Positions 11,393 through 41,000 of a DNA stretch of 64,000 nucleotides are shown here, piece by piece. The stretch is from the NCBI GenBank assembly GCA_021734475.1, contig JAIPIU010000002.1:145592-209591 (forward strand), given 5' to 3'. Made by a program: the position numbers and the translations under genes. Numbering within the stretch: the first letter of the stretch is position 1; each line of letters starts with the position of its first letter. The stretch comes from Candidatus Altimarinota bacterium (GTDB lineage: Bacteria > Patescibacteriota > Gracilibacteria > Absconditabacterales > Absconditicoccaceae). The notes below the pieces were generated by a model. That model did no database searches. It saw only the letters and a list, made by a program, of their open reading frames with translations, and was not told the origin of the DNA.

Positions 11393-11692
11393 CTATTTAA
11401 AAAATATTTCACTCAGCCTAGTTTTATATCATAGATTAGCAAGAGACTCGTTTATTTTTTCCAAGAGCTCTTGTTTTTTTTTATATAAAAAAATTTTTAT
11501 TTTTTGATCTGATGTTTTTACAAATAACTTATTGAATCTAACATATCCAGATATTATATCATCTATATTTTTTATATCCAAATTATCTTTGAGAAAACGT
11601 TTCATTACATTTACCGCTACAGACCCTATCATATTTCTTCATAGATGTCTATTTGCCATCCTTTTTCTAATTTCATTTTTTATCAATTTCAT
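11393..11692 (-). CDS. DUF721/DciA-like small protein
   Basis: A 99-residue ORF when one internal UGA near the C-terminus is read as glycine. The pattern of a basic N-terminal helix, a central beta segment (KLFVKTSDQKIKIFLYKKK), then ELLEKINESL and a final short strand resembles DUF721 proteins such as DciA, which help load the replicative helicase. Similarity is weak and by eye only. It lies 30 bases after trmD on the same strand, likely in one transcript. The start at 11692 is chosen because an in-frame TAA lies directly upstream. Confidence 0.5.
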
Positions 11693-11722: not shown

Positions 11723-12466
11723 TTAATTCTTTTTACTATTTTTATTTTTTCGTTCGCCTATATTTTTGTGGTGTCAGCTCAATAATATCTTTGGTACTTT
11801 CATTCACAATACTTCTTCTGGTCTAGTATATTGTGGATGTTCCAAATTGTTCATTTTACTTTCTACACTATAGCTCTCATATTTCCAGCTATCAGCTTCC
11901 TTGATTACTCCAGGTATAAGCCTGGTTATAGATTCTATTATAGTCATAGTAGGAGTTTCTCATCATAGAGTAATAAACTGTCATATAGATATCTTTTGAA
12001 ATTTACTTTTATATTTTTTCTTCATATATTGTTCCCAGCGGTAATCTATACCTTCATATCTTCCACACACAAAAATTAAATTCTGAATCTTGGATAATTT
12101 ATGTGCCTTGCTTTGATCAAAAATATTTTTTGCTGGCGAAGGAAAGATAATTCTAAAGTCATTCCGGTCTCAAGGACGAAGTCTGCAACCGGAATCTAAT
12201 TTTTTTATATCCTTCGCTGACGCTCAGGATGACAGTTTCTTTATTACGCTCTCTACAGCGTCAATTACTGGTTTAGCTTTCATTAGCATACCAGCTCATC
12301 CACCATAGATTGTATCATCTACTTGTTTATGTTTATCTTTACAAAAATTTCTAGGATTGATTATTTTAAATTTCAAAATCTTTTTCTCTTGGGCTTTTTT
12401 GATCAGAGATGTAGCCAAAAAACTATCAAATATTTCAGGAAAAATAGAAACTATATATATGTTCAT
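11723..12466 (-). CDS. trmD: tRNA (guanine-N1)-methyltransferase TrmD with an in-frame insertion
   Basis: A 247-residue protein that methylates G37 of tRNAs with S-adenosylmethionine. It starts [15 protein letters not shown], has the family's [38 protein letters not shown] and HPQYTRPEE motifs, and ends shortly after LLSGHHKNI. Several of the glycines in these SAM-knot motifs are UGA. Residues about 78-103 have no counterpart in the family; they are encoded by a palindromic repeat at 12159-12235 inserted in frame between the N-terminal half and the knot. The insertion contains two UGA codons, so it is open only under code 25. Upstream lies another such repeat, then the VirB2-like gene. Confidence 0.95.
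12159..12235. repeat. Palindromic element inside trmD
   Basis: It begins GTCATTCCGG and ends AGGATGACAG. The inner parts form CATTCCGGT/ACCGGAAT and ATCCT/AGGAT hairpins. It is GC-richer than its surroundings and translated in frame as part of TrmD. Its first half is nearly identical to the element at 12500. Confidence 0.8.
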
Positions 12467-12499: not shown

Positions 12500-12602
12500 G
12501 TCATTCCGGTCTTAATGACGAAGTCTGCAACCGGAATCTTATATATTAGTCTTAGCTTCCGGCTGCAATCCTCCACCTCTTGAGGTATTGGACCGGAATG
12601 AC
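12500..12602. repeat. Intergenic palindromic element upstream of trmD
   Basis: Perfect ten-base inverted ends, GTCATTCCGG and CCGGAATGAC, with an internal CCGGAATC/GCTTCCGG structure. It fills the gap between the VirB2-like gene and trmD. Transcribed, it would form a stable cruciform or hairpin in the trmD leader, so an effect on processing or expression is possible. Confidence 0.85.
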
Positions 12603-12611
12603 TTTGGTGTC

Positions 12612-13748
12612 TTATCCTCCACCTCATGTTACCAAAAATTGTATCAACCTCACAAATGCATATGATCAGCTAACAAACAATAGTCATATCAAAGATCCTG
12701 TAATTCATTTTTTAGCTTTACTGTGTAGGTCTTGATTGATACCAGAGAATACAAACAGTAATCATGATATAATCAACACTATAGTAATCACAGTTCCTAC
12801 AAAAAAAGTCGCTGACAAAATTATATCTTGTATAAATATTCATGGAGAAGATCTAGTGTCTTCAGGTAACGATTGTCTGATACCTAGAGTATCATATATG
12901 TTAAATTTACATTGACCGTTCATCAAACAATCTGGATCCATTTCTATTCCTGCCGTTCATTCAGTGTTTACATAACATTTATTATCTTCCAACAGTCATT
13001 CACAACATTTACTAGCTCATGCTTCATCTGTATATAATTGATTAGCTGGACAAGTAGCAGGATCCGTTGAACAGTATTGTATATATATATCTTTTATATC
13101 TCATCATTCTCATGTTCACAGAGATTGAACTTGAGATTTTAAACTAGAACAACTCTTACAACTATATTTTCATTCACTATCTTTTACTACAGCATTTCAA
13201 TCTATACAACAAGATAGGCTATTATCTTCAGTTGGTCATAGCGATCAAACTTGTTCGGGAGCTATAGTTTTTGAATAGACAGTTCCTTCACAACATTTGG
13301 CATAGTTATCGGTTACTGAATCTTTGTCATAAACGGTTCATCATATGGGACAACATTTTTTGTTTCACACTCACAGTCATCCACGACCATAGGTTTGTCA
13401 TCCATTTCAAACACAATCAAGGTTTGAATCACTACATTTTGGTTTTGTAGAACCATCTTCAAAACAACAAACTCAAGGACTTATTTCATTAATATAATTT
13501 ATTGTAAAAGAATCTATTTTACTAGCTTCACCTGGACAACGATCTTTTCGCAGTTGTATATTAGGATCAGGTATTTCTTCACATGATCGATGACTAGGAT
13601 TTAAATCACAACAATCATCACTTCACTGAGCAAATTCACAACAATCATTACTTCAAGGTTGTGCTAAACAAGGATCAAAACCTTGTCAGTAAGAAAATCA
13701 AGCCATCAAAAAAATAAAAACAAAGATTGCAACAATATATTTTTTCAT
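12612..13748 (-). CDS. Exported Cys-rich protein with VirB2-like two-TM C-terminus
   Basis: A 378-residue ORF. The N-terminus has a signal peptide (KYIVAIFVFIFLMAG). The body, residues about 25-290, is very cysteine-rich with many CC pairs, suggesting several small disulfide-bonded modules outside the membrane. The last 75 residues hold two hydrophobic segments separated by a short basic loop (HSKAKKG), in the arrangement of VirB2/TrbC-type pilin subunits common in CPR genomes. The protein could be a surface pilin-like subunit with a large disulfide-rich head; this is inference. It ends in GGGG followed by TAA. The next gene on this strand is trmD. Confidence 0.75.
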
Positions 13749-13818: not shown

Positions 13819-13932
13819 GTCATTCCGGCGCTAAGTATTGCAGCCGGAATCCGAATGTAATGAGTCCCGCAAGGCGGGATTGTTACAAATAAATAATAGA
13901 TTCCCTCTCCCAAATAACAGCCCGGGAATGAC
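13819..13932. repeat. Intergenic palindromic element
   Basis: It starts GTCATTCCGG and ends CCGGGAATGAC, with internal CATTCCGG/CCGGAATC and TCCCGC/GCGGGA hairpins. It lies between the divergent Cys-rich gene and the M23 gene. Apart from it, 13749-14037 shows nothing but AT-rich promoter-like sequence. Confidence 0.85.
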
Positions 13933-16827: not shown

Positions 16828-19800
16828 TTAAATATTTCATAATCTAACTTTTGATCTATCTATATCTTTTGAACTTAATCATAGAGTATGTCATTGTAAT
16901 CATTTCCTAGATAAACGTTTCTCCAAATCCCTAAGTTTTTTATTTAAATAAATATCTTCATTTCTATAGTCACGTTTCTTTTCATCTCTAAGTTTTCTCT
17001 CTTCTGGAGATAATTTTCTTATTTCTGCAGCTTCTGCCAATTCTGATTCTTCTTCAGTTAAAAAAGAAGAAGAAAAATTTTCCACTATTTTTATATATTC
17101 ATTCCAAGGAGCTAAATAATAAGGTCTATTAAAATCTTCTAGATATTGTTTTCCAAAAAAAGATTCTATAAAATTATTGTCAAATTTATCTATATTATCC
17201 AAAAATAGATTATAAAATCATTCCAAAGCTCATTTAAATTGAGTCGGAGGAGAACTTCTCTCATTTTCTACTATCTCTCAAACAGTAGAATATCGCATTA
17301 TATTATCTAAATCTTTTTTTGTTAAATCTCATCATTCTTGTTTAATTTTTCATCATGCTAATTTTGACTGATACCATTTTATAGTAGATATTCTTCTAAC
17401 AAAATCTGATTTTCCATTTTCATCAAAAGTTCTGTCAAATCGATTTAAAAATACTTTTGCTATAGATTCAAACTGTTCAGATGAAGATAATTTTCATTTT
17501 GGTATTTGTTTACTTACAGAATTCCGAAAATCTTCAGCAGCTTGAATTTGATCTACCTCTCATGTAAATCAACCATTGTCATACTTCATCATTTCACGTT
17601 GAACAAATCATTTAGTTTGAGTTAATGGAGAATCTGTAATTATCTTGGAATTAGTATTTACATCTTTGTCAGTTCATTCTACTTGATTTTCTATAGATAG
17701 AGCTTTTAGTTCATTCATAATAGGATCTTTAGATATATTTTTTCCATTAAAATCTTCCATAACTGGTAGTTTTCTCAAAAAACTTTCAATATTAGTTCAA
17801 TTTGTATATCGCCATTTTTCAAAATTTCATAAAAATTTTTTATATTCAATTTCCTCACTTTTTTCCGAAAAACTATTCGAATTATATTTTAATTTATCGT
17901 TTTTTCAAAATTCTCAATTACTTATATAATCCAACATATATGCTATTTTTTCTTTTTGTTCATATCTAGTTATCCATAGTCATGGACTAAATCACATAGA
18001 TCTACATATTGATTCTAGCCATCATTTAGTATCTTTATCTGCAAAATGTAAAAAAAATCCATTAAGCATGCTACCGATTATGCACATTTTCAATAAACTA
18101 ATTTGCTGTGGTGATTTTGCTAGAGTTGCCATTCTTTTTAGGAATGCTAGTGCATGTTGAGATCTTCCTGAACCAGAAAATCTTTTAAATTCATTATAAC
18201 AGAAAGTAAAATTCGTTACTTGTTTTAGTCAATTAAATCTATCTTCAATTTTTGATTGAGAAATTCGTTCATTATATTTTCAATCAAGTTCTCAAGCAAA
18301 TTTATCTGATCGCATTCTTTTGGGATTATCATCTCATCAATCTTCTCAAAGTATTTGACCAAAACGCTGTCACGTAGCTCTTCCTCATATATTATTTACC
18401 AGATAAGTCATTTCAGCTCTTACCAAATCATTTACCATTGGTCAATCATAACCAGATCAATATATTCCTTTTTTAGATTCAATTTCTCTAATGAGTTCTT
18501 GCTGATGAGCTAAAAATCTTTGTTGATGTTCTTCTCATAAAAGTAATTTTACCCAAGCTCATTTTAATCTAAGTTGTTGAATTCCACGATATGGAGATCA
18601 ATTTTTAATAAGCGCCAATAAAGTGGCTGGAGCTATATAACGATCTTGAGGTAATTTGCCGTCTATTATCATTTCTTTTAGATTTAATCATCACAAGTAT
18701 GGTCTCAAAAATCAATCTAAATCAAAACTTTGACCAAAATCTGGATCGGCTTCGAATATTTTCAATCGTTTCTCTGTTTTTTTCCATACTTTAGCATCTC
18801 TTTCATTTCGATATTCCAATTCTATAGTTTGAAAAGCATCACCAGCTCATGGTATAAAACTCATTAATCCAGCCATTTTTTTGTATATTCATACATCACT
18901 AACCAAAAACTCATTGAACATATCCTGTCTCTCTTTGCTATAATTTTTGAGTGCATCATCAACTTTTTTACCTACTCATTTAAATACTTCCAATATTTGT
19001 TTGATACCAAAAAATTTCCATTCCTTTCTTCATTTATGTTTGTTCCATGCAGCTTCATCATGGTTTTTGACTTTGTCATCAGCATTTTTTTGAGTACTTG
19101 GTTTTAGATTTTTGGTGGATACAAATATCATAAAGTTATTATAATCCATTTTGCGTTTATAATTTCCCAATTCTACGGTAAATGTATTATCAGAATTATG
19201 AGATACTTTGTAATATATTGGAACTATTTCTTCTTTTCATTTATCATCATATTCTCTAGAGTCCATTCATCGATGAGTTATTTCTTCTTCATTTCCTTTA
19301 TCATCTTTCAATAAATTAGACATAAATTTTCATTTTTCTCGTCTTACCTCACCAAAAATTCCAGATCAACTTATACCAAGATTTCAATCTCCAAAAGCTC
19401 CAAATGCTTTATCCCAGTTTTTGGGATCGGGTAATTTATAAATATCTCCATTAAAAGCATTACTAATTTTATCTAGTGATTCTTTGGTTTTGGGATAAAC
19501 TATTTTTTTCCCTTCTAAATTTCCTGCAGCCAATTCTCATCATTCCAACTCCACAGTGAAATTTGTATTTGTTATATTTATTATTTTCAATTGTATCCAC
19601 TGATCTCATCATACATCCATAGGAGGTAGCTCTGTTTCAAATCATGTTTTGATCCATATTCTAGTTCAGATTTCAAATCATTTTCATATTTCTTTTCAGT
19701 CAAAAATTTCTCATTTACTATTTGGGAATTGATATCATTTTATATTATCTCGACTTTCTAAAAATTTTTGTTTTTCTGTTTTTTCTTTAGTTTCTAGTCA

Positions 19801-21396
19801 AATTCACTTTTCTTTATTTTCTTCACTATCTTGACTCTCTTTGCTTTCACCTTCTCAGCCTTTCTTATCTTTATCATCTGTCATTCCGGCAGCCTGCCCC
19901 GCAGCACCGCGTGGGTCAAGTTTTGCGGCCGGAATCTTATCATCAAATACTTCCTTGAGTTTATCTACATTGTCTTTGTTCATAGATCTATTATCAAAAG
20001 AATTTTGAGCCAATACATACAACAAAAATAATTTTCCAATATTGTCTCAATTTAGATTTATACTTTTCCCATCTTCAGAAATTTCATTAGCAAAGACTTG
20101 TTTGATAGCAGCGTTTTTCAATAGATCATTATTTTCTTCCAATACTTTTATATCCAATTCCAATGGAATCTTTGCATCAGCAAAATTAGACATATCTATA
20201 AAATTTGGATTTACTCATCCTTTTAATTTCTTATTTACTCCTAATCTAATATCTCACTGAGCTGTATCAATCACTATTTCATTTTGATTCAAATCAAAAA
20301 TATTTTTTGCAAAATATTCAAAATCTGATTGATCTACTCAGATCAAATTGCTTAGATTATTTACTTTCAATTCCTCCAATCTAGCAGATATATTTTCTCT
20401 TAAAAATTCATTTTGATCTTCTTTACTTAGTTTTCCAAAATCAAATTTATTTTGAAATAATTTGGACAATAGATCTCATAAATTTTTATTTTTCTTTTGT
20501 ACCATATCTATGTACGCATAGAAACTAAGTTTATCAAATTCTTCTTTGTTTCAATTCTCTTGAGCTTCATCTAGTTTTTTTCTTATTTCATCATCAATTT
20601 CATTTTGCTTCCACGGATATTTTTTTGTTATCCATCACATATTTGGAACAAAATCATTGAATGTATTTTTCAATAATCCAAAATTTTTCTCCAAAAACGC
20701 TAGACTAGATTTCATCCCATCTAGATATTCTTGTGTGATTAGTTTATCGAATTTTTTACTCACCCCAGTATTCCAATTTTTGAAATTTCAATCTACATCA
20801 TTAGCTCATATTTTCCCATCTTTCATCAATCCATCTACTATATCTTTGTTTTCTATCCTTATATCTTTTATTTCTTTTTCAAGATATTCGTCTATCTTTT
20901 TTCATCCATCACCATAATCAACAAAATTCCAAAGCTGATTTTTAAATTCATTCAGAGTTTTGGTATTATTCATTTCTCTATCCAAGCTAGACTTCAAATT
21001 ACTTGGCACCTTATCCTTTATCCTTTCAACTAATTTATTTATAACTACTTTTTCCATATCTTTTCATAGTTCTCACATACTACTACTGTTTAAAACATTA
21101 TGCAAAGTAATAGCAGAAGTGTGTCTATCATCACCAATAATTTGATCTATACCAAAACCGTCATCTTTGATCATATCAAATGTCACTGTTCAATTTTTAC
21201 TTATTTCTTCCAATAATCAAAAATCTGATTCTATTCTATAATATTCCAAAAATTCTTTCAAGATCTGAATATTATCTTTTCACTGATTTTGGGGTTTATT
21301 TTTCAAAGTATCCAATATAGTCAAAATCATACTAGAAACTTGAGAATTTCTAGCTCATCATTTTTTACCATTAGGAGTCTTTTTGGGTGTATTCAT
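16828..21396 (-). CDS. Giant hypothetical protein (1522 residues)
   Basis: One continuous ORF under code 25 with dozens of UGA glycines. The N-terminal half is helical and charged, with no signal peptide. Residues about 487-505 come from a palindromic repeat inserted in frame (19880-19936). An Asp/Lys/Glu/Ser-rich linker follows near 505-530. The middle has Gly- and beta-rich sequence (about 540-760) with segments like GIFGEVRREKGKF, and the C-terminal third is Lys/Glu-rich with Trp and Tyr. MAGLMSFIPGAGDAFQ near residue 850 is the only mildly hydrophobic hairpin. I do not recognise the family. Size and overall style resemble the proteins at 5850 and 38018, but I could not demonstrate homology. 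The gene is preceded by a plausible promoter at 21456-21484. Confidence 0.75.
19880..19936. repeat. Palindromic element inside the 1522-residue gene
   Basis: GTCATTCCGG at 19880-19889 and GGCCGGAATC near 19927-19936 bracket a GC-rich core. It reads in frame on the minus strand as roughly 19 residues (IPAAKLDPRGAAGQAAGM). The composition contrasts sharply with the AT-rich flanking coding sequence, so it marks an insertion into the gene. Confidence 0.8.
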
Positions 21397-21455
21397 ATTA
21401 CATATAAAATGCTAAAGCATTGTAACAATATTACAATGTAACAATGAATCAATTA

Positions 21456-38017: not shown

Positions 38018-41000
38018 ATGACAGGTCCAGAAAATTATGTAAAAGATATAGAGTCGAGTGATAAATTGAGTACTACTGAGTTATCGGTTCTAAATGCTTA
38101 TGTTGAAGCAGAATTTAGAAAATTTTCCGAAGATAATGAAATTAATGAAAGCAATAGAGATAAAAAACAAGAAGAATTCAATACCAAGATAGATGAGATC
38201 GTAGAAGCTGAAAAGGAAAAAGCTCTTTTTGCTGAAATTATAAAGTTTGATTTTGAACTTACTGATTTAGCTACTCAAATAGATCTCCAAAATTTACAAA
38301 ATGATGTAGATCAAAATACAGATAAATTAGATTCCAAATCTATTGAAAATAAAATTAAATGAAAATTTACTCTTTTCAATTGAGTAAAATTATCAGATAT
38401 ATCTGATGAAATTGCAAAACTATGATCAGCAGATCAAACAAAAATAATAGACTTATTATCAAAATGAAAAGTTACAGAATTACAAAAAATATTATGAAAA
38501 GATAATTTACCCAAATACTGATTTGATTGAAAATTTTGATCAGAGACTTTATCTGGTTTGGAAATTTATACAAACGATAATGCTGACAACACAAACGATA
38601 ATGCTGACAATACAAATGATAACACTGGTAACACAAACGATAACGCTGACAATACAAACGATAACGCTGACAATACAAATGATAACACTGACAATACAAA
38701 CGATAACGTTGATAATACAAACGAGCCAGAAGTCGATCCAAACATTTTGACAGAAGTTACAGACGAAACAGAAAAAGCAAAAATAACATCTAAACTATTT
38801 GATATCACAGAATTCAAACGATGAAAAATCCAAAAAAATTGAGCTTGATTATATTTTGCAGAGATTAATGCTACTATAGATTGAACTGAATATGAAGTAT
38901 GATCACTCAAATTTGATGCAGATTGAAACCTTTTACCAGACCAATTAATAAAAACAACAAATAAAGAACGAGAAGCTTTATATTTTGTAGATGATAACAA
39001 AATCAAATTTCTTGCTAGATATTCTGATTGAATGTATCTTACAAAAGATACAGTTACTTGAATTACACCTATAGAGAAACCAGAAAGTTTAGATAATCAA
39101 TATGGCTACAAACCAACAGAATTTAATCTAATGGAATGATCAGAAGTTCATTATGAATTCAAAGATGACTTATGATATTCAGTTGACGACCTAGAACATA
39201 AACACCCAAAATTAAAAAATATTATGGACAAGATTATAGATGAAGAAGAATGAAAAGAAAATTTATCTAGAAGAAAATTTAAAATAAATTTGAGTCCAAA
39301 TGACTGATTAGCGAAAATTATTTTGGACATAGATAGCGGAAAATTAGATATCAATCGAGACAAAAAATGAAGAATTTCTACTGCTGATATCAAAAAATAT
39401 TTTCCATATTACGAACGTGAATGATGAATGGATAATGAAAGAAGAAAGATTGCTATGATATTAAATCAGGCTGATCAAAATGATTTATTAAATTTTGCAT
39501 ATGACGCACAATCATATTGAGAGACATACAAAGAAAAATTTCAACAAGCTGATAGGTTTGACCAAATAGCGGATAACTTATCTTCTGAAAATATTTTAGA
39601 AGCATTGTGTGATTTCAATACTGATTGACAGATTTCCGTTGTTGAAGGTAGAACACAACTCAAATCAAAATTCAAAACAGAACAATGAAAATATCCATGA
39701 CGAAGAAAAGATTTCAAAAAAGAGAAAGAGCAACGAAAGGAAACAAATAAAGATTATAAAAAATCACAAGAATGAATATGAGATGCAGCTACTATTTTTG
39801 GTCCACAATTATATTCAGAAATCAATAGAGCAATAGCGGTATTAGATGTAAAACTCAAATATGAACCAGATACCAAATCTGAATATATGAGAAAATATAA
39901 TCTTACAGCTGCTGATCTTGAGTGAGATTGAAATGATCTGACATGAGAAAAAATAGTTATAGAAAATATTATGAGAAATATTGCTTGGACAACCACCAAT
40001 CCATCTTTGGAAAGAGCTATATCCAATGTAAAAGCCAACCAACGAACTAAACAGAAATTACTTGAATTTGCTCAAAATTTTACATGAAAAGAATGATTTG
40101 ATAATTACTGAAATTTTCAACCACTATTTGCCAAGGCTATAGAAGAGTTAAATTGATCAAGTGCTACTATCACTCCTGATTTAGTTGATAATTTGACTGG
40201 AGTAGAGAGATTGGATACATGATTTGATAGATATTCTATGATAGAAAAAGAGCTTAATGCTTACTTTTCCAAACATCCAGAAATGGAAGCAAAATTCAAA
40301 TCTGATTGATTTACAGATACTAAACATACATTTATTACATGACTTATGTCAGTGTTGGATAACTTACAGGTAAGTCTGAGTCCAGATCAATGATGAATTA
40401 CAAAGTCTTTTGATACAAAGAAATATAGACATAAACTAGAAAATGAATTTACTAGAAATCTGATTTGATGATGACTAACATTCAATCCAAATTGAACTAT
40501 TTGACTCAAGTCTGATATATGAAAATACGATTTTTCAGAAAATTGAAAATTTGTACGATGACGAAATGTATGACCATGAGTACAATACAATGCAGCCACA
40601 TGAATATTAGCAGTAACTCTTAGTGCATCTGCAGAAGCTGCTCGACAATATAATTACAAATGAGTAATTACTTCAAGACTAGATGATATCAAGACATGAA
40701 AATATATATGACTACAATGATGAACTACAAATGTTTGATGAGAATTAGCATGAAATTTTGCTTGAGCTTGAGTAGCTGCATTAGAGGTTATTTGGAAACA
40801 AGATCCCAAACAATGAGTAGAACAAATGACTCGCCAATATAGAGATATTTCTTCTTGAATATTTTATTTACCTACAAATATTGATTCCAAACATATACAA
40901 AACAAAGCTTCATTGGAAAAATATTTAACATCTAGATTAACTACTGTAAAAAATTGAGCCAAAGAACCATTCAAAACTTTTATAGCAAACAACGAATGAT

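Follow-up and report, generated by a model that had tools for sequence, protein, structure and literature searches.

How a palindromic, repeat-like segment can come to lie within the reading frame of trmD, the gene for tRNA (guanine-N1)-methyltransferase, is the question raised by this locus. The gene occupies positions 11723-12466 on the minus strand of the window, the whole 64,000-nucleotide stretch that was analysed, and encodes 247 aa when TGA is read as glycine. Translated with table 25, it matches PF01746 (E=3.6e-46); a genome search identified it as the sole TrmD match in the 1.17 Mb, eight-contig assembly, and the closest relatives by TrmD include candidate division SR1 and Candidatus Absconditabacteria. 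Eight in-frame TGA codons are present. In an alignment of 43 TrmDs, codons 57, 162, 168, 169 and 231 fall in columns that are 100% glycine and codon 221 in a column that is 93% glycine, whereas the remaining two, codons 81 and 99, belong to the repeat and do not coincide with conserved-glycine columns. Since six of the eight occur at conserved glycines, the reading of UGA as glycine is evident from trmD itself, and the UGAs of the element come in addition. The tRNA scan, which covered the window, returned one tRNA-Thr.

The segment, 76 nt long at 12158-12233, consists of two REP-type palindromes in inverted orientation, arranged as GTCATTCCGGTCTCAAGGACGAAGTCTGCAACCGGAATC, a spacer and ATCCTTCGCTGACGCTCAGGATGAC; the first-pass annotation had placed 77 bases at 12159-12235, so that the element was there and its ends were off by one or two bases. 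The left unit (type A, 12158-12199, plus strand) consists of a GTC tag, the stem ATTCCGGT/ACCGGAAT and the tail CTAA. Its 42 nt are 100% identical to a copy elsewhere in the genome (L114:3948-3907, E=1e-16), and another copy (L107) is 95.8% identical over 48 nt. The right unit (type B, 12209-12233) carries the GTC tag followed by ATCCTGAGCGTCAGCGAAGGAT on the minus strand. In a related copy (L092:1239-1264), with the sequence ATTCTGAGCGTCAGCGAAGAAT, both arms are altered and the stem is preserved (ATTCT/AGAAT versus ATCCT/AGGAT). Because the left unit is of type A and the right one of a second type, the element is a heterodimer of two REP types. Its folding beats all 200 dinucleotide shuffles (z=-3.15). 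It encodes approximately 26 residues (about 78-103), and the two UGA codons that had been announced within it are those at 12224-12226 (codon 81) and 12170-12172 (codon 99), both on the minus strand and neither at a conserved glycine; this frame can indeed be read only with UGA as an amino acid.

These properties, together with the distribution of the repeat, support the view that the segment is a dispersed palindrome inserted in frame. The head GTCATTCCGG, which had been described as common to the segment and nearby intergenic elements, occurs five times exactly in the window (six matches with one mismatch allowed, versus 0.55 expected from shuffling) and 112 times exactly in the genome, while the reversed control is found nowhere; the repeat is a multi-copy dispersed palindrome, like those known as intragenic REP/RPE insertions. 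For 100 of the 112 heads, the units were characterised from the stretches around the repeats. The unit GTC plus ATTCCGG..CCG[AG]AAT is present in 89 of these 100 copies, followed mostly by CTT or CTA; loops span 14-50 nt, tails are mostly CTTA, CTAA, CTAT or CTAC, and the base preceding the tag is T in 45, A in 38, C in 15 and G in 2. Units occur singly or as inverted pairs, with 31 paired-head dimers among 83 elements. Within the window, intergenic dimers of the family lie at 12500-12602, ahead of trmD and about 33 bp from its start codon, and at 13819-13932 (repeat scan), and a single unit lies in frame at 19880-19936 (plus strand) in a 1527-aa ORF (16831-21411, minus), where no TGA is needed (KIPAAKLDPRGAAGQAAGMT).

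Comparison with relatives places the insertion in time and in the protein. In the alignment of relatives that had been proposed, the congeners G001 and G002 (73% identical overall) have no REP segment and carry loops of 9 and 5 residues there. The stated addition of about 25 residues is therefore close for the peptide encoded and too high for the length gained: compared with the congeners, TrmD is longer by a net 17-21 residues, since the element took the place of the earlier loop of 5-9 residues and was not purely an addition to it. A near-identical empty site was not found among the relatives, so that the insertion ends and a target duplication are not readable. TrmDs in the PDB also do not have the segment, their alignments breaking between query residues ~74-85 and ~104. 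An AlphaFold2 model, whose Foldseek matches are TrmD structures, has a mean pLDDT of 88.9, with 54-59 in the insert and more than 90 in the flanks, and sets the insert between a helix (64-79) and a strand (104-109); the model supports a position in a flexible loop of the methyltransferase domain. No column between residues 66 and 111 is invariant or nearly so, and this loop is the only internal site in the 43 TrmDs at which several sequences have at least four extra residues.

The family has entered other genes of the same genome. In-frame copies are found in uvrC (twice), ackA, pheT and comEC, and further in genes for a peptidoglycan-binding (PG-binding) protein, a polysaccharide pyruvyl transferase-like protein (PS_pyruv_trans) and a UPF0489 protein. 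In trmD, as in uvrC, ackA and pheT, the domains of a conserved gene continue on both sides of the repeat; the pheT case is less clean because the PheT loop is variable. The uvrC gene (L106:1149-2924, contig C4, minus strand) holds two separate copies, both at sites that are occupied by other repeats in relatives; the second corresponds to a gap in the PDB alignment (query 437|464 against 64|66 in 2nrt), and so does the AckA copy (query 18|46 against 19|25 in 1tuu), through whose insert AckA matches an intergenic REP in tblastn. A TGA lies inside the repeat at five of the ten intragenic sites: trmD, both uvrC sites, comEC and the PG-binding gene, the last four in the frame CCG GAA TGA at the tag. 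In addition, argS, a UPF0004/radical-SAM (MiaB-like) gene, rarA (MgsA_C) and gatB (L247, L249, L251 and L254) hold in-frame copies of a second palindrome family, CCCCCTTGATAAAGGGGG, with the peptide xPLIKGG; none of these four copies has a TGA within the repeat. Among the interrupted genes that could be identified, those for tRNA and repair enzymes are frequent.

The same loops are struck repeatedly, which corrects the assertion that other TrmD proteins have nothing at this position, since several relatives carry unrelated inserts in the loop. The TrmD loop of G024 contains a AGTCRAARGTCRAA-type palindrome (fold z=-4.18) with 15 matches in that genome versus 5 in the control. G059 and G060 have the CCCCCTT palindrome, whose 18-nt core is rare in these two genomes (one and two places) and dispersed in the genome studied here. 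Inserts in G004, G011, G015, G023 and G032 are less clear: those of G004, G011 and G015 do not prove palindromic when their folding is compared with shuffles, the G023 insert (SSGKSAKN) was rejected as a REP peptide, its DNA having neither a REP nor folding, and the CTTCCATCTTCCAT repeat of G032 is unique to trmD in that genome and is thus unproven as a dispersed family. At UvrC site 1, the genome studied has a GTCATTGCGA-type plus type-A pair, G001 a decayed GTCATTGCGA-type copy and G015 a different GTC-tagged pair; UvrC site 2 is occupied in the genome studied by a type-A unit and in G001 by a GTCATCTTGAG dimer, and G024 has there a repeat-like insert of unrelated sequence. The same TrmD loop and the two UvrC sites are filled in relatives by unrelated repeats. 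G002 has no AckA insert, and in G001 its place is taken by a different, low-complexity one. A third palindrome family, rich in AGTC, is found in G024, G015 and G004 (L145-L159) mostly within conserved genes, often with a TGA inside the repeat: pheT, mnmA (twice), uvrC, thrS, gyrA, traX, PolyA_pol (CCA-adding-enzyme-like) and uvrA, which has two copies in G024 and, at a matching site, one in G015. The small gene adjoining trmD in the window (11393-11692) has a G015 counterpart (L159) with an AGTC-type insert, which the window copy does not carry. In another genus, tsaD of G020 (L173) contains an in-frame REP with the same head, reading PE-TGA, with family support; in G020 and G032, several further open frames that run across REPs may be spurious.

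Taken together, these observations make it very probable that the trmD segment is a non-autonomous dispersed REP-type palindrome, made of two GTC-tagged inverted hairpin units, which landed after the split from the sequenced congeners. Some transposase would have moved the REP into trmD after that divergence, and the insertion would have been tolerated because the frame is kept, UAA and UAG are absent, both UGAs are read as glycine and the receiving loop is flexible and holds no conserved residue. The peptide would be made and retained in the enzyme, and the insert is probably near-neutral. A RAYT was considered as the mobiliser and is unsupported: neither of the two Y1 (RAYT-like) transposase genes in the genome is flanked by a trmD-type REP, no transposase in it could be tied to the family, and REP number does not go with transposase presence, G020 having 36 heads yet no PF01797 match. 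One of the Y1 genes (L002:1295-2000; contig C4, ~122.8-123.5 kb) is flanked by a different palindrome, CACCCGGGTG, maybe its own REP.

The first-pass annotation had also proposed that the code change widens the set of tolerable insertion sites. Code 25 does increase the number of open frames: of 6, REP dimers have 2.00 open instead of 0.72, and single units 5.12 instead of 3.85; shuffled sequence gains 0.7 in both cases, less than the REPs because the tag GGAATGAC itself has a TGA in one frame. However, half of the intragenic copies need no UGA. The code widens the tolerable frames and is not needed for intragenic insertion, and the idea that UGA as glycine drove intragenic colonisation is weakened by the five of ten REP copies and all four CCCCCTTGATAAAGGGGG copies that do without it. 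A broader reading, possible though doubtful, starts from the stop codon that the tag GGAATGAC of every (C)GTC-AT REP holds in one frame: in UGA=Gly SR1-type bacteria the reassignment would have done away with it and opened conserved genes to several unrelated palindromes that reuse a few loops (TrmD and the two UvrC sites). Were this true, the proteins' load of inserts would be a by-product of the altered code. Only about 10 of the 83 REP elements lie in supported genes, while ORFs of at least 150 aa cover about 86% of the window; the small number would fit strong removal of intragenic insertions, the coding fraction being a mechanical estimate and the stretches having been picked by repeat.

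Among the alternatives, the one that fares best, while still improbable, is that the insertion was co-opted, its peptide giving TrmD a new contact (tRNA, a partner, regulation) that selection has kept. The abundance of tRNA and repair enzymes among interrupted genes would suit it, as would the decayed UvrC site-1 REP shared with G001, from which it follows that some inserts last long. Nevertheless, the loops are filled by unrelated repeats in different genera, so that no particular sequence is required there, and the insert is modelled with low confidence. Bypassing elements of some yeast mitochondria are skipped or removed segments, and the stable hairpin could suggest that the trmD segment is likewise lost from the protein through ribosome skipping or mRNA removal. 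This is highly improbable, for the copies within conserved genes preserve the reading frame and are free of UAA and UAG, constraints that skipping would not impose, with the proviso that the survey sought open frames only and frame-breaking copies would escape it. Hardly any credence can be given to an ordinary fast-evolving, length-variable loop whose REP likeness is due to chance or low complexity: some relatives do have long loops with no recognisable repeats (G023; less clearly G004, G011, G015 and G032) that fold no better than shuffles, but in this genome the 42-nt identity to a REP elsewhere, the fit of both halves to REP units and the folding score refute it. Finally, a pseudogene or an assembly chimera, conceivable in an eight-contig, probably metagenomic assembly where repeats cause false joins, is scarcely credible given one continuous trmD frame across both flanks with every invariant residue intact, no other trmD in the genome and a pattern that recurs in many genes and genomes.

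Intragenic REPs are themselves already known from Rickettsia and other bacteria; the new twist is that UGA-read copies occur in an SR1-type host. A close match is with the CGTC-tagged REPs (Di Nocera et al. 2013, PMC3733652), which share a GTC-containing tag, a stem starting with AT, inverted dimers and heterodimers, and a presence inside genes for repair and tRNA functions, at times twice within one Uvr gene. In that superfamily, according to the same paper (PMC3733652), intragenic copies interrupt tRNA synthetase genes as well as uvrA and uvrB, in both of which a pair of insertions is described, and two Xanthomonas species have distinct REPs at roughly one position of recB; the paper also reports that CGTC REPs have no transposase of their own, which matches the missing RAYT link here. 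The present family fits the superfamily in its stem (8-9 bp starting with AT, in 89 of 100 copies) and its dimers, and only loosely in its tag, which in the superfamily is CGTC (or TGTC, CCTC) and here has T, A or C ahead of GTC; it does not fit in loop size (14-50 nt versus 4-5) or tail (CTT/CTA versus CCA), and the host is of SR1 type with UGA reassigned. The likeness to Rickettsia palindromic elements (described in part in PMC3733652) was well drawn: both are small dispersed palindromes, intergenic and in frame in conserved genes, that encode 20-30 residues. The host is nevertheless unrelated, the repeat sequence differs as far as described, and part of the copies here need UGA as glycine. 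REPIN/RAYT systems share the inverted pairs of REP units and the presence of Y1 transposases, and differ in that a RAYT is flanked by the same REP, which neither gene is here, and in that REP number here does not track transposase presence. Our literature search found no reports of REPs or MITEs in Patescibacteria.

These results extend intragenic palindromes to SR1/Patescibacteria and point to a readily missed consequence of codon reassignment, namely that the genetic code determines which mobile sequences can be read through in genes. They also amount to a natural inventory of loops at which essential enzymes tolerate insertions, struck by unrelated repeats in different lineages. Two further features of the window may be recorded. 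Upstream of trmD, positions 12612-13748 (minus strand) encode a predicted 378-aa Cys-rich protein with 29 TGA codons, and positions 38547-38756 hold a coding-like tandem array of seven copies, in register, of a 21-bp unit.
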